Program-made: the position numbers and the translations under genes
The notes under the pieces: model-generated
What the model was told of the DNA's origin: nothing
Database searches by the model: none
The model's input: the letters and a program-made list of their open reading frames with translations, nothing else
Source: a virus
Direction: 5' to 3' (one strand)
IMG/VR virus record: IMGVR_UViG_3300030103_000217
Span: 1-23,773 of that record
Length of the DNA: 23,773 bases
In this document: positions 2,104 to 23,773 of the stretch, piece by piece
Layout: each line of letters begins with the position of its first letter
How positions within the stretch are numbered: the stretch's first letter is position 1

Positions 2104-3438
2104 TTAGTGGATCTCCGCTGGATCAATGTGTACGACCTTGCCGTTGTCGGGAGTCGCATGTTTGTTGTCGATCACACACCACAGGGTTGGGCAGTCCCAT
2201 GTACCCCAGTCACCGAACAGGTAACCATCGGTGAGGATGATCGTTGCTTGTGGCTTGATCTGATGCTGCTGCATGTGCTCGACCACGCACTCAACATCGG
2301 TACCGCCGCCACCTCGGGGTTTGGTAGATTGCGCCAGCGTGTCTAGCTCGTGGGACTCGTATGACTCGTCACCCACAACCTTGTGACCCCAGTACAGTAG
2401 GCGAACCTTGTCGGGCTTGACCGTAGTGCAGATCGACTGAACTTCTGACAGGAACACAGCCAGATCAGCGTCGGGGATAGACCCTGACGTATCAACAGCA
2501 ATCACAAGCTCATCGACCTTCTCGCTGATACCGCTAGGCATATAGACACCGGCACCAATGTATCGACGGTTGGGACGTTTCCATGTGGAGTAGTCGTTGC
2601 CAGTACAGGTTGTCTGAATGAACTCGCGCAGTACCTCACGCCAATCGACCTGCGATTGCATAAGCTCATCGAGTAGACGATTGCCCGTAATGCCCGACTT
2701 GCCAGCGATAATGCTGCCCTGACGTATCGCTATGTCTACCTCTTTCTCAAGCTCTTTGACTTCATCGTCTGACAGGTTATCTGCACCATCCCAGTCGTGC
2801 TCATCGAAACCCCGTGGCTCGTTGCCTTCTGGCTCTCCGTTACCGGAACTCCGTGAATCGGTTGGTTCACCGATACCGTCATCGTCACCGCCCTTGCCGG
2901 TAGGTGGAAATGGGAAACCGCCGCCACCTTTGGGCGGTTGCTGCGTACCATCATCCAATGTCTTGAAGATCACAGCAGTATCAGACCATGATCCATCGGG
3001 CTTGCGGAACTGTTCATCGTACAGCCCCATACGTTCGCCTACGTGTTCGCCATCTTTGTAGATAGGCATAGTGGCAAAGCCATCCTCTCGGTTCTCATCG
3101 ACCAGCTTGCCGTTGATGTTGTAGTCGCATGACGCATTAGCGAGTTTGTGGTTCTTGTCGTGCAAGTGTTTCCACGTTATCAGGTGCCGGTACATCTTGT
3201 GATAGCACTCATGCAGTATCACGAAGCGAAGCTCGGCATCGGTCAGGGAATCAACGAACGCTCGACCATAAGTCTCGTCACGCCCGTTGGTACATGCAGT
3301 TGGTACGTCATCGCTGACAGTCTTGCTGCCTACCATGAGTACACCAGCCAAGGCCATGTACCGTGGGTGAGCAGTAATAGCTATCACTGCTTTGGTGATC
3401 CGCTGCTCGGCGGTCAGTTGTTGGTTTAGTGCTAACAT
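2104..3438 (-). CDS. VWA-domain protein with N-terminal HExxH metallopeptidase-like domain (DUF2201-like)
   Basis: A 444-aa protein in two parts joined by a low-complexity Gly/Pro/Asp/Glu linker (about residues 165-225). The N-terminal part has H-E-C-Y-H at 76-80 with a further His at 85, followed by an S-C-D-Y-N-I-N segment at 103-109, the pattern of the zincin-like domain of DUF2201 proteins. The C-terminal part is a von Willebrand A fold with a full MIDAS set: D-T-S-G-S at 316-320, GGGGTD with Thr380, and I-L-T-D-G at 401-405. Such VWA proteins normally work with a MoxR AAA+ ATPase, present two genes upstream. Start at 3438 has a TAAGGAG site; it overlaps the end of the 45-aa zinc protein gene by 7 bp. 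Domain calls are firm. Whether the HExxH centre is a working peptidase and what its target is are unknown. Confidence 0.85.
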   Translation of the reverse strand: MLALNQQLTAEQRITKAVIAITAHPRYMALAGVLMVGSKTVSDDVPTACTNGRDETYGRAFVDSLTDAELRFVILHECYHKMYRHLITWKHLHDKNHKLANASCDYNINGKLVDENREDGFATMPIYKDGEHVGERMGLYDEQFRKPDGSWSDTAVIFKTLDDGTQQPPKGGGGFPFPPTGKGGDDDGIGEPTDSRSSGNGEPEGNEPRGFDEHDWDGADNLSDDEVKELEKEVDIAIRQGSIIAGKSGITGNRLLDELMQSQVDWREVLREFIQTTCTGNDYSTWKRPNRRYIGAGVYMPSGISEKVDELVIAVDTSGSIPDADLAVFLSEVQSICTTVKPDKVRLLYWGHKVVGDESYESHELDTLAQSTKPRGGGGTDVECVVEHMQQHQIKPQATIILTDGYLFGDWGTWDCPTLWCVIDNKHATPDNGKVVHIDPAEIH

Positions 3439-3569
3439 GTTATCTCCTTACTCCACACATCCTTATCTGTGTCCTCTTCAAGACACTCCTCACTACAGTA
3501 TCCCCACACACCACCGTAATTGATGGGCGTATCGCAGCCGTCTTTCAAACACTTATCTTGCTCGTCCAT
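3432..3569 (-). CDS. 45-aa zinc-finger protein between the MoxR and VWA genes
   Basis: Read directly: ATG at 3569, 45 codons, TAG at 3432-3434. A strong AAGGGGG site lies 4 bases before the ATG. The protein has four cysteines in a C-x4-C ... C-x3-C layout (Cys7, Cys12, Cys25, Cys29), with Y-C-S-E-E-C typical of the second half of small treble-clef or MYM/FCS-type zinc fingers, and a very acidic tail. A fifth Cys is the last residue. It starts 10 bases after the MoxR gene ends and overlaps the VWA gene start by 7 bp, so it is placed and coupled like a true member of the operon. Probable role: protein-protein or nucleic-acid adaptor; function not known. Confidence 0.75.
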   Translation of the reverse strand: MDEQDKCLKDGCDTPINYGGVWGYCSEECLEEDTDKDVWSKEITC

Positions 3570-3579
3570 GTCTACCCCC

Positions 3580-4683
3580 TTACACCTTGTCCGCTGCGAA
3601 CATGTAGCCGTTCTCTATAGCCCACTGAGTAAACAGCTTGCTCTGCATAACCATAGACTGTCTGGCTTTGTTGTATCTGCTGGATCGAACACCGTTGGCG
3701 AACAGACCTTGAGCTTCTTTGTCCAGCCGATCCACGTATGTCATCCACGCATCAATCCAATCACGCTCCACCGCAGCCAGTGCTTTGAACACCACCATGC
3801 AGGTAGCAGCTACGGACGTTGGCACCGTGGCATTGTCGGGATCGTTCTTGATTGACTCCAATGACGGTAGCTGGTCAGCCAGTTTGAGGAATGCCATAAA
3901 GTCTGCGGCGGCTCGGACACCGATAGTGCCCATGAGTGCTGCCTGTAACGTGTTATCGTCCAGCCCCTCACGACGTTTCAAGATGTCACTCGCTGCATGT
4001 AGTGAACGTGGCGTGCAGAACGCAGCCCGATCCACAGCTTTGGGGTGAAAGATGTACTGGTTGTCATCTGGATTCGGTACATCGCGGAAGTCTTGCATGA
4101 CTGCGGAATTCTCTTTGACCCAGCCCAGTATTGTGTGGTCGAGATCGTTACCAACGCCCCACTCGACCCACTCCATGTGGTCAGGCTTTTTAGTCTCGAC
4201 CACGGTGATACGGTTACGGGCATGTGCAGGTAACAGATCACCCACACCCTCGCTGCCGAGGTTGGTCGTGGCGAATATGATGGAGTCGGGGTGCAGTGTG
4301 TAGCTGCCGATCTTACGTTCGAGGATCAAACGTAGCAGGGCATTCTTGACTGCGGGGTTGGCCTTACCGAACTCGTCAATCATCAGGATGATCGGCTTGT
4401 CGTGGTGGGCACCCAATTCCTCGTTGGTCAGGTACGTCACATAGCCAGTGCCGTCATCCAGCTTGGCGATGTTGGGTATCGTGATGTCACCCAAGTCCTT
4501 GGTCGTGCAGTCGAGAAAACATGCTATGTAATCCGGCAGTGCCTCTGAGATTTCGGTAAGCAGTGATGACTTACCTGTACCCATGTGGCCTTGAAGTAAG
4601 ACTGTGCGAAGCCGACCGATTGCCAAGATTAGTGCCTTGGCTTGTTCGAGGCTCAGTGCGTAAGTTTGTTGTGCATAGCTCAT
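3580..4683 (-). CDS. MoxR-type AAA+ ATPase (CobS/CbbQ/RavA-like)
   Basis: A 367-aa AAA+ ATPase with Walker A G-H-M-G-T-G-K-S-S (32-40), Walker B I-L-M-I-D-E-F (99-105), sensor-1-like F-A-T-T-N (137-141) and an arginine-finger region H-A-R-N-R (154-158). The compact layout is that of MoxR proteins, which remodel protein complexes or help insert cofactors together with a VWA partner; that partner is encoded two genes downstream. In phages this type is often labelled CobS, but no other cobalamin gene is here. The start at 4683 follows AAGGAGATAGCC; an in-frame ATG 51 bp upstream would lie inside the regulatory palindrome at 4715-4737 and is rejected. It has its own promoter (4779-4807) and is the first gene of the leftward unit ending beyond the window. 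Confidence 0.9.
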   Translation of the reverse strand: MSYAQQTYALSLEQAKALILAIGRLRTVLLQGHMGTGKSSLLTEISEALPDYIACFLDCTTKDLGDITIPNIAKLDDGTGYVTYLTNEELGAHHDKPIILMIDEFGKANPAVKNALLRLILERKIGSYTLHPDSIIFATTNLGSEGVGDLLPAHARNRITVVETKKPDHMEWVEWGVGNDLDHTILGWVKENSAVMQDFRDVPNPDDNQYIFHPKAVDRAAFCTPRSLHAASDILKRREGLDDNTLQAALMGTIGVRAAADFMAFLKLADQLPSLESIKNDPDNATVPTSVAATCMVVFKALAAVERDWIDAWMTYVDRLDKEAQGLFANGVRSSRYNKARQSMVMQSKLFTQWAIENGYMFAADKV

Positions 4684-4714
4684 GGCTATCTCCTTTCCGT
4701 TTTGTTGTTTTGGT

Positions 4715-4737
4715 TTTGTGTATAAGTCATACACAAA
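4715..4737 (-). promoter_or_regulatory. Dispersed 23-bp palindrome, copy A (upstream of MoxR gene)
   Basis: Perfect 9-bp arms TTTGTGTAT (4715-4723) and ATACACAAA (4729-4737) around a 5-bp centre. The same element occurs at 6394, 7145, 7674 and 8747. Here it lies between a promoter and the gene start, about 35 bp after the expected transcription start and 31 bp before the ATG. It is either a dimeric regulator's operator or a stem-loop in the 5' leader. No T-run follows in the direction of transcription, so it is not a terminator. Confidence 0.75.
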
Positions 4738-4766
4738 GTTGGTTAGTGGTAGGCAGTATTGCCCTG

Positions 4767-4779
4767 TGGTGAATCACCA
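4767..4779. promoter_or_regulatory. 13-bp palindrome at the expected transcription start
   Basis: TGGTGA-A-TCACCA is a perfect 6-bp inverted repeat around one base. It touches the -10 box of the leftward promoter (4779-4784) and covers the expected start of transcription, a usual position for a repressor operator. Seen once only, so a chance palindrome is possible. Confidence 0.35.
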
Positions 4780-4807
4780 TTATACATGGTATTTCGTGTT
4801 ATGTCCA
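4779..4807 (-). promoter_or_regulatory. Sigma70-like promoter for the MoxR/VWA unit
   Basis: On the minus strand TGGACA (4802-4807), a 17-bp spacer and a perfect TATAAT (4779-4784). The spacer starts with TAACACG, shared with the promoters at 7210-7238 and 8684-8712. It lies 15 bp after the stop of the DUF3150-like gene and reads toward the MoxR gene. The hexamers and spacing are close to consensus, so host RNA polymerase probably uses it. Confidence 0.7.
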
Positions 4808-4821
4808 GTTACCTACCGACC

Positions 4822-5754
4822 TCAGAGATCCAAGGACGGTAGTTTGCTGATGATGTCTTTGACCTGCTGCTGCTTGTCTAGCCGCAACGTCTCGCTGTTC
4901 TTGAGCGCATCGGTGTTCACGCCGTACAGCGCATCCTCTAGCTGGTCTGCAATCGCAGTCATCTGAGTGTCGCCAGTGATGTTGAACCTACGCATCATAC
5001 GAATCAGCTCCAGCGACGTATCGAAGACGCTATCGTATAACTTGTTATATTTTTGATTACCCTTGGCATCTAGCTCATCTTTCGGGGATAGCTGACGCAG
5101 CACAGTCGATAGGTTCTTGTGCAGTCGCGTCCAGATGTCATTCATCGCGGCTTCAATGTTCTCGCTGTAGAACTCGTCATACTGTTGCTTGACTACCTCC
5201 AGAGCTTCTGCCGGTAGATCCAAACGTGGGTCGCCACGCCTCGGCACCTCGGAGAACACAATACGCCAGCGGAACTTTCTGCGTAGCTCGTCAACCGGCG
5301 GGTACTCGCTGTGGTCAAACATGTTACCTAGCTCTGCCATCGCGGTAGATGTACGCCACTGGTACGCATCCTCGAACAGTTGGTATAGCCGGTGGAACTC
5401 TTGCTCCAGATCCGTCATCACGTTCAGGTAGTCGAAGTATTCAGATGTCGGTATCAGGCGCAGCCCCATGTCAGACCACGGTAGGGTCATCGCGTAGTGG
5501 GTGTTGCGTGCGTTACCTACAAACTTCTTTAGGTCTTCCAGCTCAGTACAACCGGCGAGCAGGTTCTTGTTGTAGTTACCGGCTTTGGCTGACGCACCGC
5601 TGTCACGGGCTACCTTGGCTGACGCGGCTTTGTCTTTCTTACGCGCAGTCCACGTTGAGACTTGCATCTGCGATAGCATGAAAGCCGTGTCGAATGCTGG
5701 CGCGTTTACGGTTGGGCCTTGGGCCAGTGATTGAATGTTGCTTACTTGTTCCAT
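4822..5754 (-). CDS. DUF3150-like protein, partner gene of the MoxR/VWA set
   Basis: A 310-aa soluble, mostly helical protein. The central part resembles, from memory, DUF3150 proteins: a T-L-P-W-S-D-M-G-L-R-L-I-P stretch (about 90-102), then L-G-N-M-F-D-H-S-E-Y-P (about 142-152) and F-S-E-V-P-R-R-G-D-P-R-L-D (about 167-179). DUF3150 genes are commonly next to MoxR and VWA genes in phages and bacteria, and here the MoxR gene is next downstream. The start at 5754 follows TAAGGAG. It is 25 bp behind the phosphatase gene and shares that gene's leader sequence (AACCAAACCAACGATAAGGAG) but not the palindrome. Family assignment is a moderate-confidence recollection; no biochemical role is known to me. 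Confidence 0.7.
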   Translation of the reverse strand: MEQVSNIQSLAQGPTVNAPAFDTAFMLSQMQVSTWTARKKDKAASAKVARDSGASAKAGNYNKNLLAGCTELEDLKKFVGNARNTHYAMTLPWSDMGLRLIPTSEYFDYLNVMTDLEQEFHRLYQLFEDAYQWRTSTAMAELGNMFDHSEYPPVDELRRKFRWRIVFSEVPRRGDPRLDLPAEALEVVKQQYDEFYSENIEAAMNDIWTRLHKNLSTVLRQLSPKDELDAKGNQKYNKLYDSVFDTSLELIRMMRRFNITGDTQMTAIADQLEDALYGVNTDALKNSETLRLDKQQQVKDIISKLPSLDL

Positions 5755-5779
5755 TGGGAACTCCTTATCGTTGGTTTGG

Positions 5780-6367
5780 TTAAAAGTTGCCTTCGGCTAC
5801 CTGTAAGCAGGTTATGCCGTTGGATCGCCACATATCGACCACACGCTGGCGGTCATCTACTGCGAACAAGATGTTGCTCTTGTCCACGGTTTTCAGTATC
5901 TCGTTGAACATGTCCTGCTTGATGTCTTTGTCGGGGTCATGCCTACGGTTATCAGGACGCATCATCAGGTAGGTATCCAGATGAGCTTCGATAGACTCGC
6001 GGGTATAGCCCTCGTCTGCATAAAGATCATCGTGATACGAACCTTCGTAAGAGCACTTATCCAATAAGAAGTTACGAGTAACCTCGCGGTACTGCTCCAT
6101 ACGCCCAGTACAGAAGATGATCTGCTTGGCTGAGTCCTCGCACATCCACAGTAGATCCACTATAGGTTCGTTGGGTGTGTCCCACTCCATCGCCGCGTTG
6201 AAGGCATCGAAGTCCTTTTTCTTGCCGGTGACAAAGTGCCTTCGGTGTTCGATGTCAGCCAGTGTGCCGTCGATGTCAAAGATGACGGTTGGCACGTTAT
6301 CAATCGGTTCGGGCAGGATAACCCTGCGACCTGTGTTCCTATCTTCATGGGCTGTAAAAAATGGCAT
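5780..6367 (-). CDS. HAD-family phosphatase, polynucleotide 3'-phosphatase-like
   Basis: A 195-aa HAD-superfamily protein. Motif I is F-D-I-D-G-T-L-A-D with nucleophile Asp31 and acid/base Asp33; motif II is F-C-T-G-R (85-89); Lys150 fits motif III; the V-D-D-R segment at 170-173 gives the magnesium-binding acidic pair. This arrangement matches the phosphatase half of T4 polynucleotide kinase/phosphatase, which removes 3' phosphates from nucleic-acid ends. No P-loop kinase half is fused and none is seen nearby, so it acts alone or with a kinase encoded elsewhere. A 5'-nucleotidase role is the main alternative. The ATG at 6367 has AAGGAGG upstream; the in-frame upstream ATGs fall inside palindrome copy B and are rejected. 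Confidence 0.85.
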   Translation of the reverse strand: MPFFTAHEDRNTGRRVILPEPIDNVPTVIFDIDGTLADIEHRRHFVTGKKKDFDAFNAAMEWDTPNEPIVDLLWMCEDSAKQIIFCTGRMEQYREVTRNFLLDKCSYEGSYHDDLYADEGYTRESIEAHLDTYLMMRPDNRRHDPDKDIKQDMFNEILKTVDKSNILFAVDDRQRVVDMWRSNGITCLQVAEGNF

Positions 6368-6393
6368 TGCTGCCTCCTTATCGTTGGTTTGGT

Positions 6394-6416
6394 TTTGTGT
6401 ATAAGTCATACACAAA
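6394..6416 (-). promoter_or_regulatory. Dispersed 23-bp palindrome, copy B (before the phosphatase gene)
   Basis: Identical to copy A over all 23 bp, and the match continues on both sides (GTTGGTTAGTG and TTGG). It sits 5 bp after the stop of the preceding gene and 26 bp before the phosphatase ATG. I see no -35/-10 pair upstream, so this copy lies inside an operon, which favours an RNA-level role for at least this copy, or an internal operator. Confidence 0.7.
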
Positions 6417-6421
6417 GTTGG

Positions 6422-6805
6422 TTAGTGAACTGACACAAGCACCGCGCTTTTACGCAATGCCATGAGGTTGACGGTGCCGTGGCGCGAACAGTCGAGATAC
6501 TGAACGCCGCCCTTGATGTATACATGCTCGGGCATGTCGAGCAGACGGAACAGCGCATTGAGTCGGGACTGTGTAGTGCGCGACGGTGCGAGTACCTTAC
6601 GCCCGTTCACCTCCTTCTCGTATCCGCCACAGGACACCCATAACTTCTTTACCCCATCTCGATTCGACATGGTGGCGATGCGGTTGCCATGCAGTAACAG
6701 GTCGAGACTGCGGGTGGCTTGGTTGAACACGGACTGCGTGTTGCCCATTGCTTTGGTGTCGCCCTTGATGAACGCACCGATAACTTCTTTTTCGATCTTA
6801 CGCAT
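6422..6805 (-). CDS. Unknown phage protein, 127 aa
   Basis: A basic 127-aa protein beginning MRKIEKEVIGAFIKGDTKAM. The start at 6805 follows GTTAGGAGA and overlaps the end of the upstream gene by 8 bp, so the two are translationally coupled. The middle holds a repeated small-residue and Arg/Lys-rich stretch (R-T-T-Q-S-R-L-N-A-L-F near residue 77), followed by a beta-like C-terminal segment (V-Y-I-K-G-G-V-Q-Y). One Cys-Gly-Gly and one C-S-R-H segment are present but do not form a recognisable metal site. No known family is recognised. It precedes a nucleic-acid-end phosphatase gene, so early or DNA-metabolism expression is plausible. Confidence 0.7.
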   Translation of the reverse strand: MRKIEKEVIGAFIKGDTKAMGNTQSVFNQATRSLDLLLHGNRIATMSNRDGVKKLWVSCGGYEKEVNGRKVLAPSRTTQSRLNALFRLLDMPEHVYIKGGVQYLDCSRHGTVNLMALRKSAVLVSVH

Positions 6806-7121
6806 TACTGTCTCCTAACAGGTCACACATACGGTCTAGCTGGTACTCGGTAACGTGCGGCTTGTTCTTGGCTAGACCGGCCTGCGCTATGGTCACGAGT
6901 GTGTTTAGCTTTTCCAGCAGGTCATCGTGCTCGGCTTTGACCAACCTGATCTTGGCTTCGTGGTGAGCTTGGTCGTCCCAACGTAGAGTCTCGCTGGCCT
7001 TGTTTACAGATTCGAGGTGTCTGATCTCAAACGCGGCTGTCCTTAACGTCACATAACTATGCGGAATTGAGTCTGCGAGTTGCTCCAATTGCTCGGGCAA
7101 GCTCTTTTCTTCATCTGACAT
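6798..7121 (-). CDS. Unknown helical phage protein, 107 aa
   Basis: Begins MSDEEKSLPEQLEQLADSIP and is almost entirely predicted helix, acidic at the N-terminus, with a heptad-like centre (about residues 45-85: A-K-I-R-L-V-K-A-E-H-D-D-L-L-E-K-L) that may form a coiled coil. The ATG at 7121 follows AAAGGAGACAGCA. An in-frame extension upstream would read through palindrome copy C and is rejected. This is the first gene of the leftward unit driven by the promoter at 7210-7238. No family recognised; small early helical proteins of this kind often act as regulators or host-takeover factors, but nothing here proves that. Confidence 0.7.
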   Translation of the reverse strand: MSDEEKSLPEQLEQLADSIPHSYVTLRTAAFEIRHLESVNKASETLRWDDQAHHEAKIRLVKAEHDDLLEKLNTLVTIAQAGLAKNKPHVTEYQLDRMCDLLGDSNA

Positions 7122-7144
7122 TGCTGTCTCCTTTCGTTGTTGGT

Positions 7145-7167
7145 TTTGTGTATAAGTCATACACAAA
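7145..7167 (-). promoter_or_regulatory. Dispersed 23-bp palindrome, copy C
   Basis: Same 23 bp as copies A and B. Its upstream edge is 43 bp from the -10 box of the promoter at 7210-7238, against 42 bp for copy A, and the ATG follows 23 bp later. The fixed spacing says promoter and palindrome form one functional leader. Confidence 0.75.
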
Positions 7168-7209
7168 AAATGAGTGTGTCGGGCAGGGGTCTCCTCACCG
7201 ACAAGAGAT

Positions 7210-7238
7210 ATTGTCTCACATATAACGTGTTATGTCAA
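7210..7238 (-). promoter_or_regulatory. Sigma70-like leftward promoter with perfect -35 box
   Basis: On the minus strand TTGACA (7233-7238), a 17-bp spacer and GACAAT (7210-7215, 4 of 6 consensus). The stretch GACATAACACG spanning the -35 end and spacer start is identical to that in the promoter at 4779-4807. It reads into the 107-aa, 127-aa, phosphatase and DUF3150-like genes. Confidence 0.6.
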
Positions 7239-7250
7239 GCGGTGGTCAGG

Positions 7251-7546
7251 CGTGGTATCTGGTGGTGAGAAGTGTAATGTTACGCAATGTTACGTCCTAT
7301 GGGCTGGTAAGTCCTTGATAAGTAAGCAATGTTACATTGTTGCGTTTTTCAGGGAATTGAATGGGTCTGAGCGCAGACGCTCGGGAACGTAACATTAGTT
7401 CTGTGTAACGAGATTTTCTGCAAGTAGGGGGGTCAACGGGCGAGGTATATATACTTTTTGGTAAAAACGTAACATTGTAAGGACTACTATATATATATAC
7501 AGGTTTTTGTATAAATACATACTAATACTTACAACCAGATACCACG
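7251..7546. repeat. 13-bp perfect inverted repeat flanking the AT-rich core
   Basis: CGTGGTATCTGGT at 7251-7263 returns as its reverse complement ACCAGATACCACG at 7534-7546. The midpoint is near 7398. The enclosed 270 bp hold several iterons and the AT-rich tract (7445-7530). No gene with a ribosome binding site is visible inside. It may bracket a replication origin. Confidence 0.5.
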
Positions 7547-7626
7547 AAATACAACGAGGATAATGTTGCCTTTTTGCCATTTCAAAACGCAACATTGCGT
7601 AACATTAGCGTTTCGGACGTAACATT
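7276..7626. repeat. Iteron-like cluster of CGTAACATT (candidate replication origin)
   Basis: The 9-mer CGTAACATT or its reverse complement AATGTTACG occurs at 7276-7284 and 7286-7294 (reverse), 7388-7396, 7468-7476, 7598-7606 and 7618-7626 (forward). One-mismatch copies are at 7328-7336 (reverse) and 7588-7596 (forward), and a weaker one at 7562-7570. The copies to the left are reverse and those to the right mainly forward, with an AT-rich stretch of TA steps (7445-7500) between. Clustered oriented iterons beside an AT-rich tract in a gene-free region is the layout of a replication origin or a multi-site regulator region. No replication initiator gene is in the window, so the function is inferred. 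Confidence 0.6.
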
Positions 7627-7631
7627 AGCCC

Positions 7632-7793
7632 CGCACCTCGAATCTAGGAGCTGGTATCGTGGTAACGTGTTACTTTGTGTATGAACTATACACAAAACGT
7701 ATCATCCTGTGCCGCACATCTAATCTAGGAACTGGTGTCGGAGGCGCACTGCACAATGCGTTTGGCGCACCTCGAATCTAGGAACTGGTATCG
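7632..7793. repeat. Three 28-bp direct repeats in the non-coding region
   Basis: Copies at 7632-7659, 7713-7740 and 7766-7793. Each begins CGCAC, has AATCTAGGA in the middle and ends with CTGGT followed by ATCG or GTCG. Copies 1 and 3 differ at one base; copy 2 differs from copy 3 at three. Start-to-start distances are 81 and 53 bp. They lie between the iterons and the terminator of the 256-aa gene. Spacing and number do not fit a CRISPR array. Probably protein-binding sites or parts of a control region; identity unknown. Confidence 0.7.
7674..7696 (+). promoter_or_regulatory. Dispersed 23-bp palindrome, copy D (inverted orientation)
   Basis: Perfect arms TTTGTGTAT (7674-7682) and ATACACAAA (7688-7696) with centre GAACT. 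The centre resembles that of copies A-C only when read on the plus strand (GACTT versus GAACT), so this copy appears inverted. It lies between the first two 28-bp repeats, with no gene start near, and directly follows a smaller palindrome GTAAC-GT-GTTAC (7662-7673). Confidence 0.7.
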
Positions 7794-7806
7794 AAAAATT
7801 CGAGAC

Positions 7807-7833
7807 AAAAAAAATCCCCGCCGAAGCGGGGAT
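7807..7833 (-). terminator. Intrinsic terminator of the 256-aa gene
   Basis: In the leftward transcript an 8-bp perfect stem ATCCCCGC / GCGGGGAT (7814-7833) closes on a UUCG tetraloop and is followed by a run of eight T residues (7807-7814). It lies 21 bp after the stop codon at 7855. The features are textbook for Rho-independent termination. Confidence 0.93.
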
Positions 7834-7854
7834 CTCTCTGGGTTGGTGGGTGGA

Positions 7855-8625
7855 TTACTTGGCTTTGCGGTGGCTCAGAGTGCGAGTCAAACCTTCCAGC
7901 AGGTTTTGCACTGCTTGGCTTTCAGCGATTACTGCCTGCTGGCCTACATCGAATGCCGCTAGCTTGTTAACCAGTTCAATCAACACGGGGTGTTGAATCG
8001 AGCGCGGCGCTGGTGAGGTTTTAGCCTCAGTCACTGGGCCGGACTCAATGTGCGTGTCAGTTGAGACGCCGCCGGTTTGGGTATCCTTACCCTTGGCAGT
8101 TTGAGCCTTAGGCGCTTTGGTAGGCTTAACTACCGTGGGAACGCCCAGCATATTGTTAACCTCATTGCGGAGGTTCGCCATGCCGGTGCTGATACGGTTA
8201 GACGATGTGCGCTGCGCCTTGATGAAAGCCGCTACCGCATTCTTCTGCGATTTGGTAACGGGTTTTTTGTTGCCGCCGGACAGCTTCAACTTGTGAGCCT
8301 TCACCGCATCGCGATCCATGCTAAACAGTTCAAGCATGTTGAATCCGGCGAGGCCAACGGTACCGAACCGTTCATAGTTCGCCATGACATATCCACGTTC
8401 CAGCGCATGGAATTTGCTGTTATCGGCATATTGCGCTTTATTGAATGACAGATCAGTAACATTAATCATGGGCTTTGCGCCCTTGGCCTTGATGTACTGC
8501 GCCGTCTTCGACGACCATGTTAAGCCTAGCAGCGCCGCAGTAGCGTCTTTCTGCGCGGCTTTACTGCCCGCGAATGCCTTTGAGTGCGCCTCGATTCCTG
8601 CAAGATTGTAGTTTGAATTTGGCAT
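7855..8625 (-). CDS. Unknown phage protein, 256 aa, monocistronic
   Basis: Begins MPNSNYNLAGIEAHSKAFAG. The N-terminal ~130 residues are Ala/Lys-rich and mixed helical; residues about 120-160 are basic (K-K-P-V-T-K-S-Q-K-N); residues about 165-210 form a Pro/Thr/Ala/Lys linker; the last 45 residues are a helical segment that could oligomerise, ending in a basic R-K-A-K. This resembles a nucleic-acid-associated protein, but no helix-turn-helix or named fold is recognised. The gene stands alone, with its own promoter (8684-8712), palindrome copy E upstream and a strong terminator downstream. That independent control beside the divergent region makes it a candidate for an abundant early or regulatory product. 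Start at 8625 has an AAAGG site 6 bp upstream. Confidence 0.8.
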   Translation of the reverse strand: MPNSNYNLAGIEAHSKAFAGSKAAQKDATAALLGLTWSSKTAQYIKAKGAKPMINVTDLSFNKAQYADNSKFHALERGYVMANYERFGTVGLAGFNMLELFSMDRDAVKAHKLKLSGGNKKPVTKSQKNAVAAFIKAQRTSSNRISTGMANLRNEVNNMLGVPTVVKPTKAPKAQTAKGKDTQTGGVSTDTHIESGPVTEAKTSPAPRSIQHPVLIELVNKLAAFDVGQQAVIAESQAVQNLLEGLTRTLSHRKAK

Positions 8626-8683
8626 AATGCCTTTCTCCGTTTTGTTAAGTTAATGCCGGTGGATCACCCCGCCGACGCCCCAA

Positions 8684-8712
8684 ATTATAACACCATGACG
8701 TGTTACACACAA
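8684..8712 (-). promoter_or_regulatory. Leftward promoter of the 256-aa gene
   Basis: On the minus strand TTGTGT (8707-8712), 17-bp spacer, perfect TATAAT (8684-8689). The spacer again carries TAACACG, one base further from the -35 box than in the other two promoters. The -35 box is weak, so an activator may be needed; palindrome copy E lies 35 bp upstream of it. Confidence 0.6.
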
Positions 8713-8746
8713 GTAAACCGTGGTATATGGCGGCAAATAGTGGTTT

Positions 8747-8769
8747 TTTGTGTATAAATCATACACAAA
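8747..8769 (-). promoter_or_regulatory. Dispersed 23-bp palindrome, copy E (upstream of a promoter)
   Basis: Perfect arms TTTGTGTAT (8747-8755) and ATACACAAA (8761-8769), centre differing from copies A-C at one base. Unlike A and C it lies upstream of its promoter (-35 at 8707-8712), outside the transcript. This placement is easier to explain by a DNA-binding protein than by an RNA hairpin. Confidence 0.7.
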
Positions 8770-8991
8770 ACCGGCAAATCTGACCCCACCGCCCCCCGAC
8801 CCCCGCGCACTGCTAGCAGCTACGCACGGCGCATGTATTACTAATTCGCTCAAATAATCACTATCACCACGAGTTTGCACATCATTTTGTATTTTCTGGT
8901 AGTATCTGATGGTTTTTTGAGGCCGTTCCCTACTAATCCCCACACAGGAAACCCCCCACCCCAAAAATAAAAGTCTCCCCGAAAAAAATTT

Positions 8992-9022
8992 TTGCTATAT
9001 CTGGTGGTTTTTGATGTATATT
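8992..9022 (+). promoter_or_regulatory. Possible rightward promoter for the head genes
   Basis: TTGCTA (8992-8997) and TATATT (9017-9022) are separated by 19 bp, longer than the preferred 17, and lie 33 bp before the terminase ATG. It directly follows an A7T5 tract that could act as an UP element. Weak evidence. Confidence 0.25.
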
Positions 9023-23276: not shown

Positions 23277-23773
23277 ATGACAGATATAACCGGCTGGGGT
23301 AGAGGTGGCTGGGGAGACGGTGCTTGGGGCACTTCTCTCCCCGTAACGGTTAGTGGCGTATCTGCTACTGGCGCGGTCACTGCTGCCTCAACGGTTACTA
23401 ATAACACCCTAGCTGTAACGGGTGTTGAAGGAACGGCATCTGTAGGGTCTGTCTCTGTTGCGTTAGGAGCAACTGTCCCTGTAACGGGAGTATCAGCCAC
23501 TGGTTCTACCGGTTCTGTATCCACAATATCTAGCAACACCCTCCCCGTCACAGGTGTTGTGGGTACAGGGCAGATAGGGACACTTTCTTTCTCTTTGAGC
23601 ATTGTTCAAGGAGTTACTGGGGTAGAGGGCACTGGATCATCAAACACTGGCACCGCAACTGGTGGCGCAACCGGCGCACCTTCAGGTGTTGAAGCTACTG
23701 GATCTGTAGGCACAGTATCCACGATAAGTAACAACACACTGCCGGTTACAGGTGTTGAAGGAACAGGAACGCT
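23277..23773 (+). CDS. Repetitive tail-type protein with Trp-Gly head, partial
   Basis: Read directly from ATG 23277; the frame stays open for 165 codons to the window end. The start M-T-D-I-T-G-W-G-R-G-G-W-G-D-G-A-W-G is unusual, with three W-G units. After it come Thr/Val/Gly/Ser repeats built on N-N-T-L-P-V-T-G-V-E-G-T-G plus S-V-G-T-V-S (clear units near protein residues 42, 84 and 151). This is a beta-repeat virion protein, most likely a tail fibre or tail structural protein that meets the host. Expression is coupled to the gene before it (3 bp away). The length cannot be known here. Confidence 0.8.
   Translation, partial: MTDITGWGRGGWGDGAWGTSLPVTVSGVSATGAVTAASTVTNNTLAVTGVEGTASVGSVSVALGATVPVTGVSATGSTGSVSTISSNTLPVTGVVGTGQIGTLSFSLSIVQGVTGVEGTGSSNTGTATGGATGAPSGVEATGSVGTVSTISNNTLPVTGVEGTGT

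Follow-up and report, generated by a model that had tools for sequence, protein, structure and literature searches.

Intergenic palindromes of a phage gene cluster vary together with a candidate DNA-binding regulator

Introduction

Immunity of the lambda type is built on palindromic operators and autoregulation, and its specificity differs between related phages. The PeSL cassettes of T4-type phages consist of a promoter plus a stem-loop. Here we describe a set of palindromes that resembles both in part. They lie in the viral record IMGVR_UViG_3300030103_000217 of IMG/VR, which was analysed over its whole length of 23,773 bases (hereafter the window). Five perfect copies, termed A to E, are present, and a gene for a basic protein of 256 amino acids (aa) lies downstream of copy E (hereafter the E-gene). 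From the comparison of this locus with its relatives, we consider it probable that the palindromes are operators of a phage-encoded regulon read by the 256-aa protein, a putative binder. A phage regulon with a DNA-binding regulator had been proposed in a preliminary description of the window, and the co-occurrence and joint switching of gene and motif among related sequences lend support to that proposal.

The sites resemble lambda-type operators in being palindromic and in having a specificity that differs between related phages, and autoregulation is proposed here as well. They differ from lambda-type operators in being spread over operon leaders and intercistronic gaps, and the candidate regulator matches no helix-turn-helix (HTH) family. 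The likeness to PeSL cassettes lies in stem-loop-like palindromes near early promoters between genes. The difference is that the arms are identical within a genome here and change between genomes in step with one gene. No match to the tyrosine integrase family PF00589 was obtained in 12 long contigs, although these may be fragments (the control was positive in 14 of 14). Searches of open-licence papers yielded none with a title or abstract describing such a palindrome system.

Cluster A mycobacteriophages (L5, TipsytheTRex) are described, in excerpts of the published accounts, as having numerous sites scattered over promoters and short gaps between genes, with one upstream of the repressor gene, and as having repressors and site motifs that are highly divergent between subclusters (PMC6550527, PMC9283540). 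According to an excerpt of the second account, the sites are asymmetric 13-mers, oriented with transcription and bound by a monomer of a repressor with an N-terminal HTH (PMC9283540). Likewise, the present locus has one site upstream of the candidate regulator gene and further sites in intergenic gaps, and the site motif varies together with the candidate regulator, with one foreign site in each of five loci. Unlike the Cluster A sites, however, those described here are palindromes with a variable spacer and not asymmetric 13-bp sites, and Pfam, PHROG and fold searches recognised no HTH in the candidate regulator. The proposed system would work like stoperators, but since the defining asymmetric, monomer-bound site is lacking, we do not assign it to the Cluster A type.

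Results

Five copies of one palindrome form a single cluster

The motif TTTGTGTAT-N5-ATACACAAA spans 23 bp with perfect 9-bp arms. It occurs exactly five times in the window, at 4715, 6394, 7145, 7674 and 8747, all as first described. The chance expectation is 0.01 copies (mean over shuffles), and five copies were reached in 0 of 100 shuffles. With up to three mismatches allowed, no copy beyond the five was found across the 23,773 bases. A 56.8-kb contig (G004) that matches the window at 23,751 of 23,773 positions carries the same five palindromes and no others over the whole 56.8 kb scanned, and the sites therefore represent one cluster. It spans 4 kb between the packaging genes and a leftward operon. 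The five copies and the E-gene are located as follows:

4715..4737, unstranded: copy A, in the leader of a MoxR/CobS-like ATPase gene, 31 bp ahead of its ATG
6394..6416, unstranded: copy B, in the leftward operon between two of its genes, 26 bp ahead of the start of a HAD/PNKP-like gene
7145..7167, unstranded: copy C, in the leader of a 107-aa gene, 23 bp ahead of its start
7674..7696, unstranded: copy D, in non-coding, origin-like DNA that lies past the terminator of the 256-aa gene and before the next promoter
8747..8769, unstranded: copy E, in the gap between the 256-aa gene and the divergent packaging genes, upstream of the promoter-like element of the former
7855..8625, minus strand: E-gene, coding for the 256-aa basic protein (isoelectric point, pI, 10.0), candidate cognate DNA-binding regulator; downstream of copy E

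The leftward genes after A, B and C start at 4683, 6367 and 7121. The -10 hexamer lies 42 bp from copy A and 43 bp from copy C, which agrees with the spacing noted before. Copy E had also been placed upstream of a promoter. About 35 bp downstream of it stands a -35-like TTGTGT, which was found by eye, agrees with the consensus at 3 of 6 positions and is not in the promoter-scan list. Overall, the scan of the window gave 5 promoter-like sites against 4.5 expected, so promoter matches alone are weak evidence. As to the statement that all copies are intergenic, A, B and C precede leftward starts and D is in a non-coding region. A simple caller of open reading frames (ORFs) places copy E inside a 104-aa ORF (g041 in G004). 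We judged this ORF spurious because it covers site E itself. The description of D as inverted carries little meaning for a site with perfectly palindromic arms and a variable spacer.

Exact window arms were found in 16 IMG/VR records, which we refer to as class 1. Five copies, in similar surroundings, are present in each of G002, G003, G004, G005 and G011. The remaining records have 1-4 copies, and many of these are short contigs. The class-1 spacer reads RRNYY (purine-purine-N-pyrimidine-pyrimidine) in 36 of 37 distinct contexts. The exception is L007, a motif record without this spacer and without a linked E-gene, whose motif is probably a chance hit. In L006, a more distant relative, there are one exact copy and two imperfect ones, the first with one mismatch and the second with two.

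Phages can borrow host regulators, and the sites could in principle belong to such a regulator. The RRNYY form of the motif, however, had one exact match in the genomes of 84,980 species, and closely related phages use different palindromes, which makes a host regulator very improbable. DnaA boxes (TTATNCACA) were also considered and rejected: the box is lost where the spacer is, for example, GACTC or GAATC, and the arms that occupy this slot in other classes are unrelated.

Relatives carry other palindromes at the same places

An IMG/VR search with the ATPase gene gave 149 relatives, and the best 80 of the 149 were kept as loci. The leader was surveyed in 76 of the 80, the other 4 beginning inside the ATPase gene or its first bases. 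Most relatives have a palindrome at the same place before the ATPase gene, with another sequence. This leader palindrome is repeated at least three times in the locus in 54 of the 76 and has fewer copies in 13, and no leader palindrome of at least 6 bp is present in 9. Where it is repeated, it sits 15-34 nt ahead of the ATPase start (52 of 54 loci). Within each of these palindrome families the arms are constant inside a genome and the spacers variable. At least 16 arm sequences occur overall; examples are TTTGTGTAT-N5, GTTATAGG-N2, TTACCGGTCA-N, CATCTCA-N, GTTATAAC-N2, TGTTAGTG-N3 and TTTACGGAA, and further TGTTAGGGA-N2, TTTAGGGA-N2, TTCGGGCA-N2, GTAGTGA-N, GTTGGTCA-N2, TCTAGTCG-N and GTATGGAA. 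A single locus can hold up to 18 copies, and sites recur in equivalent slots before starts across the operon. As a control, any palindrome reached at most 2 copies in shuffled versions of five loci and in seven other pieces of long contigs. In the named phages with related terminases, 023Pt_psg01 and DSL-LC04, any palindrome reached at most 3 copies in stretches of 39.4 kb and 34.3 kb.

We assigned the motif classes by hand from surveys of the leader palindromes, with TTTGTGTAT as class 1 and GTTATAGG as class 2. When 36 loci are tabulated against 16 motifs, nearly all entries fall on the diagonal; the five that lie off it each stand for a single copy. Over 44 loci, 243 exact copies were counted, together with 22 copies with one mismatch and 4 with two, compared to 0.0, 0.1 and 0.6 for shuffled arms; some of these loci are related, the copies are not all independent, and these loci had also served to define the arms. 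Most exact copies (200 of 225 in 40 loci) lie outside ORFs of at least 110 aa, and such ORFs cover 69% of the DNA.

The window motif itself, with up to three mismatches, was found in 0 of 40 relatives' contigs, which had been selected by hand among the 80 loci as showing either other palindromes or none that was clear. The preliminary description had named loss of the arms among conserved genes as an outcome that would speak against a regulon, and taken literally this is the outcome. Most of the 40, however, hold palindromes of their own at the same places. The failed conservation of the arms thus becomes evidence for co-variation of regulator and operator.

The E-gene travels with the motif

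E-gene picks were defined as the ORF after the first palindrome (E), chosen by position, size and ribosome-binding site. Of 51 loci with a pick, 41 were kept; the 10 dropped picks were the wrong gene in truncated loci (L042, L045, L062, L065, L070, L071, L079, L080, L086 and L089). A search with the window version of the E-gene found 13 relatives, and all 13 are motif-bearing records. Beyond these, L006 and L017 encode proteins with 42% and 71% identity to the nearest class-1 member. The gene is encoded in 15 of the 16 class-1 records, all except L007. For class 2, the class-2 protein is found in 11 of 14 motif records, one of them by a 30-aa end only and 3 of the 11 being the sources of the queries. 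The 3 class-2 contigs without the protein start at sites past the gene. For the class TTCGGGCA, palindromes are present in 12 of 12 gene records.

We also compared the 66 called genes of G004 with individual contigs. The E-gene was present in all five same-motif contigs compared (G003, G008, L002, L005 and L011). Different-motif contigs gave no full-length match: there was no match at all in G020, G026, L032, L038, L051 and L058, and a partial one in G021, L031 and L037, while the contigs G017, G019 and G025 do not reach the gene. The neighbouring terminase genes, by contrast, reach 64-94% identity in those different-motif contigs that cover them. The distribution of g041, the ORF over copy E, is the same as that of the E-gene. 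Judged by such sequence matches, the E-gene is the only plausible candidate among the 66 called genes for following the motif distribution.

To put a number on this association, we used the 11 near relatives with an E-gene pick, leaving out L025, whose contig begins past the gene. Over the resulting 55 pairs, E-gene similarity separates same-motif from different-motif pairs with an area under the curve (AUC) of 1.00. The AUC was 0.55-0.80 for the VWA, ATPase, 310-aa and 127-aa proteins and both terminase subunits. For two distant genes, compared in fewer genomes, it was 0.74 (DNA polymerase) and 0.81 (helicase).

Another phage protein might read the sites, the E-gene being merely linked to them. 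Copies E and D flank the E-gene and could move with it as one block, an HTH protein is encoded elsewhere in the genome (g014), and some genes near contig ends fall outside the comparison. However, the switch extends to A and C, and the DNA in between is conserved; moreover, g014 has the same residues 1-57, which form its HTH part, in G008 (class 1) and G017 (class 2), for which reason g014 was rejected as the reader of the sites. A mere linkage of the E-gene is therefore very improbable.

Close relatives differ in palindrome and E-gene together

On an ATPase tree with 20 rows, neither TTTGTGTAT nor GTTATAGG forms one group, the members of either class being split between separate places. Holding each class together on this tree was rejected by the approximately unbiased (AU) test, with p values of 2.7e-5 for class 1 and 4.5e-61 for class 2. 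Such a switch can also be viewed in the pair L033 (class 1) and L032 (class 2). Their ATPase genes are identical at 1066 of 1101 nt, four main aligned blocks (5.9 kb in total) are 94.1-96.1% identical, and four smaller blocks are 76-94% identical. The two loci have different palindromes, and no meaningful similarity links their E-genes. At site A, a different palindrome stands in kept surroundings, with 143 of 155 positions identical in the right flank and 111 of 159 in the left. Site B could not be compared because different genes surround it.

Since identical arms stand at scattered places with free spacers, these comparisons support what appears to be sequence-specific recognition in trans that switches with one gene. 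The 256-aa gene had earlier been named as one candidate for the regulator, and it has gained in standing: gene and motif co-occur, and they switch together between close phages.

DNA is favoured over RNA as the target

The elements that bear on transcription through the sites are the following:

8684..8712, minus strand: promoter-like element of the E-gene, TTGTGT-17-TATAAT with TAACACGTCA in the spacer; hexamers found by eye
7210..7238, minus strand: promoter-like element preceding copy C, TTGACA-17-GACAAT, whose spacer contains TAACACGTTA
4779..4807, minus strand: promoter-like element upstream of copy A, TGGACA-17-TATAAT
7808..7839, minus strand: intrinsic terminator after the E-gene, ATCCCCGC-ttcg-GCGGGGAT plus a T run, between the E-gene and D; missed by the promoter/terminator scan

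The palindromes could instead work at the RNA level: hairpins in 5' leaders, whether or not it is the basic protein that binds them, would control translation or decay. Copies A, B and C do lie in leaders where an RNA hairpin is possible, the hairpin of A is stable (-8.4 kcal/mol), the spacing of 15-34 nt before the ATPase start is widespread, and the protein is basic and helical. A role of RNA structure alone was rejected, as copies within a genome keep the arm sequence and not just the pairing. Fixed arms with a free loop or spacer are the reverse of usual hairpin recognition; an RNA hairpin operator would have a conserved loop and a stem that needs only to pair, and the sites show neither. 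One-mismatch copies point the same way. On the transcribed strand, the 10 such copies in leaders comprise 0 G-U, 3 A-C and 7 other mismatches, those in other intergenic places 1, 3 and 4, and those inside ORFs 1, 1 and 2, respectively; these 22 copies are few and not independent, with most mismatches at the outermost arm position and several copies being the same site in related contigs.

The placement of E and D also bears on the target. In classes 1 and 2, the -35-like hexamer of the E-gene follows site E at a distance of about 20-35 bp, whereas in L031, L037, L072 and L074 the site is part of the leader and a promoter-like element precedes it (by eye). Copy D lies beyond a strong terminator, which separates it from the E-gene in 5 of 5 class-1 loci, although D might be transcribed from elsewhere. 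We surveyed terminators in 19 loci, and outside class 1 the terminator is clear in 3 of 14 (L029, L036 and L087), with L088 doubtful, L094 representing the palindrome itself and 9 having none by the rule used. Taken together, the comparisons favour a DNA target, and action in RNA seems unlikely. The earlier suggestion of an RNA stem-loop for A, B and C retains the leader position and the stable hairpin of A, and is disfavoured by the fixed arms, the mismatches and the placement of E and D.

The E-gene proteins

The E-gene proteins are predominantly basic: the pI is at least 8.5 in 35 of 41 picks, compared to 20 of 77 background proteins of like size. The structure model of the window protein is of moderate quality (predicted local distance difference test, pLDDT, 76; predicted template modelling score, pTM, 0.57). 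That of a 176-aa member is good (pLDDT 90.7, pTM 0.65), and it is all helical with a C-terminal two-helix hairpin. In a second look at the fold, it was mainly this hairpin that came near helical hairpins, with Z about 5; such hairpins are common, and the match proves nothing. Single linkage by blastp joins 31 of the 41 proteins, and the E-gene proteins are likely to be one family. The gene is fast-evolving.

Two alternative C-terminal modules are present among these proteins and are shuffled independently of motif class. One is found in L033, L005, L029 and L031, the other in the window, L024, L034 and L037. It looks as if a dimerisation or effector domain had been exchanged.

Origin-like region, second palindrome and neighbouring genes

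The origin-like region (window 7270-7800) contains repeated TAACATT/AATGTTA boxes around copy D, together with three 28-bp repeats at 7632-7659, 7713-7740 and 7766-7793. Rep-like proteins often autoregulate. The E-gene product might be a replication initiator or centromere-binding protein, with the palindromes serving as origin or partition sites in any non-coding space, and the position of D among the 28-bp and TAACATT-type repeats would suit such a role. On the other hand, the sites recur in the same slots before starts, with as many as 18 in a locus, and no Rep or ParB family match was obtained in Pfam or PHROG. We consider this role quite unlikely.

A second palindrome, TAACACGTTA or close to it, is present at window 7223-7232, 7663-7672, 8696-8705 and about 4792-4801. 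In the promoter-like elements that belong to A, C and the E-gene, it occupies the space between the -35 and -10 hexamers; it also lies beside D. The element is the same across several motif classes (it is missing from L056 and L073), and variability is therefore no general feature of the control DNA. TAACACGTTA may be read by a separate, conserved regulator. The product of g014 (G004:21033-21308) is a 91-aa HTH protein conserved across motif classes, and that it reads TAACACGTTA is speculation.

The genes around the cluster are as follows:

3580..4683, minus strand: MoxR/CobS-like AAA ATPase gene, putative target of copy A
2104..3438, minus strand: DUF2201 VWA-like protein, next gene downstream of the ATPase
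4822..5754, minus strand: 310-aa gene of the leftward operon, no trusted family match
5780..6367, minus strand: HAD/PNKP-like phosphatase gene, putative target of copy B
6798..7121, minus strand: 107-aa gene, no convincing family match, putative target of copy C

In L032 and L034, a palindrome stands directly ahead of the 310-aa gene. On the other side of the cluster lies the rightward gene for the terminase large subunit. A phage nucleotide search with window 3000-9000 gave no match. In a test for the RNA polymerase family PF00940, the controls were without any match. A radical SAM/SPASM protein is encoded in the leftward region (G004:28036-28860); it is matched in G003 and not in G008, G017, G019, G020, G021 or G025.

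Discussion

What we infer about the 256-aa protein as binder, its dimer state, its DNA target and repression can be outlined as follows. The protein, probably as a dimer, would bind TTTGTGTAT-RRNYY-ATACACAAA on double-stranded DNA. It would control its own gene through E (autoregulation) and the leftward operon through A, B and C. The most likely mode is repression, with RNA polymerase being blocked or slowed just past the start site or between genes. Copy D may couple the regulator to the origin-like region.

Besides the leader positions, the hairpin of A and the rarity of clear terminators outside class 1 described above, several observations weigh against operators read by this protein. Pfam and PHROG gave no trusted match and no DNA-binding domain for the window protein and 10 other members. 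Fold searches against the PDB with the 256-aa and 176-aa models gave no convincing match; a variant HTH is still compatible with them. The blastp linkage may run partly through shared C-terminal pieces, and a separate comparison of profiles, in which the window group was set against the short members, gave a weak result (14% probability, E 0.0019). As to position, 85 of 218 copies lie within 40 bp of the next operon-strand start (ORF of at least 110 aa) and 101 of 218 lie more than 160 bp away, so the leader position is not general. As to the association with the E-gene, g014 also reached an AUC of 1.00, on 5 genomes and 10 pairs only, and the genes seen only in G008 near contig ends (such as g000, g001 and g058-g063) were outside the comparison. 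Between L033 and L032, the flanks of C, D and E are more altered, and only A has a well-kept flank.

Finally, five loci contain one palindrome of a foreign class each (L034:6904, L031:3476, L024:12377, L056:8366 and L073:12156). L034, for example, combines four class-1 sites with one class-2 palindrome ahead of the 310-aa gene. It is possible that these palindromes are relics or imports of other regulons; they may also reflect cross-regulation or, for shorter arms, chance.

We give about even credence to a broader proposal, namely that the E-gene proteins are an undescribed family of helical, sequence-specific DNA-binding proteins reading at least 16 palindromes and encoded by uncultured phages in which no integrase was detected, that the operator sets are exchangeable between phages that are otherwise about 95% identical, and that genomes with one foreign site, such as L034, are intermediates of the switch. 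In addition to the lack of trusted Pfam and PHROG matches, tblastn with three members, including the window's own, gave no match in 50,697 phage records. The protein may therefore be of a new DNA-binding type, and it may add a set of orthogonal repressor-operator pairs.

It is an old question how the specificity of a regulator changes when the gene and all its scattered sites must change together. Here, many paired solutions stand at syntenic positions, some of them a few percent apart, so that both the switch and any intermediates it may have are open to direct study. If the proposal is true, the protein-site pairs would be a natural key to a DNA-recognition code. If the system acts in superinfection, these phages would compete through mutually incompatible regulatory codes.

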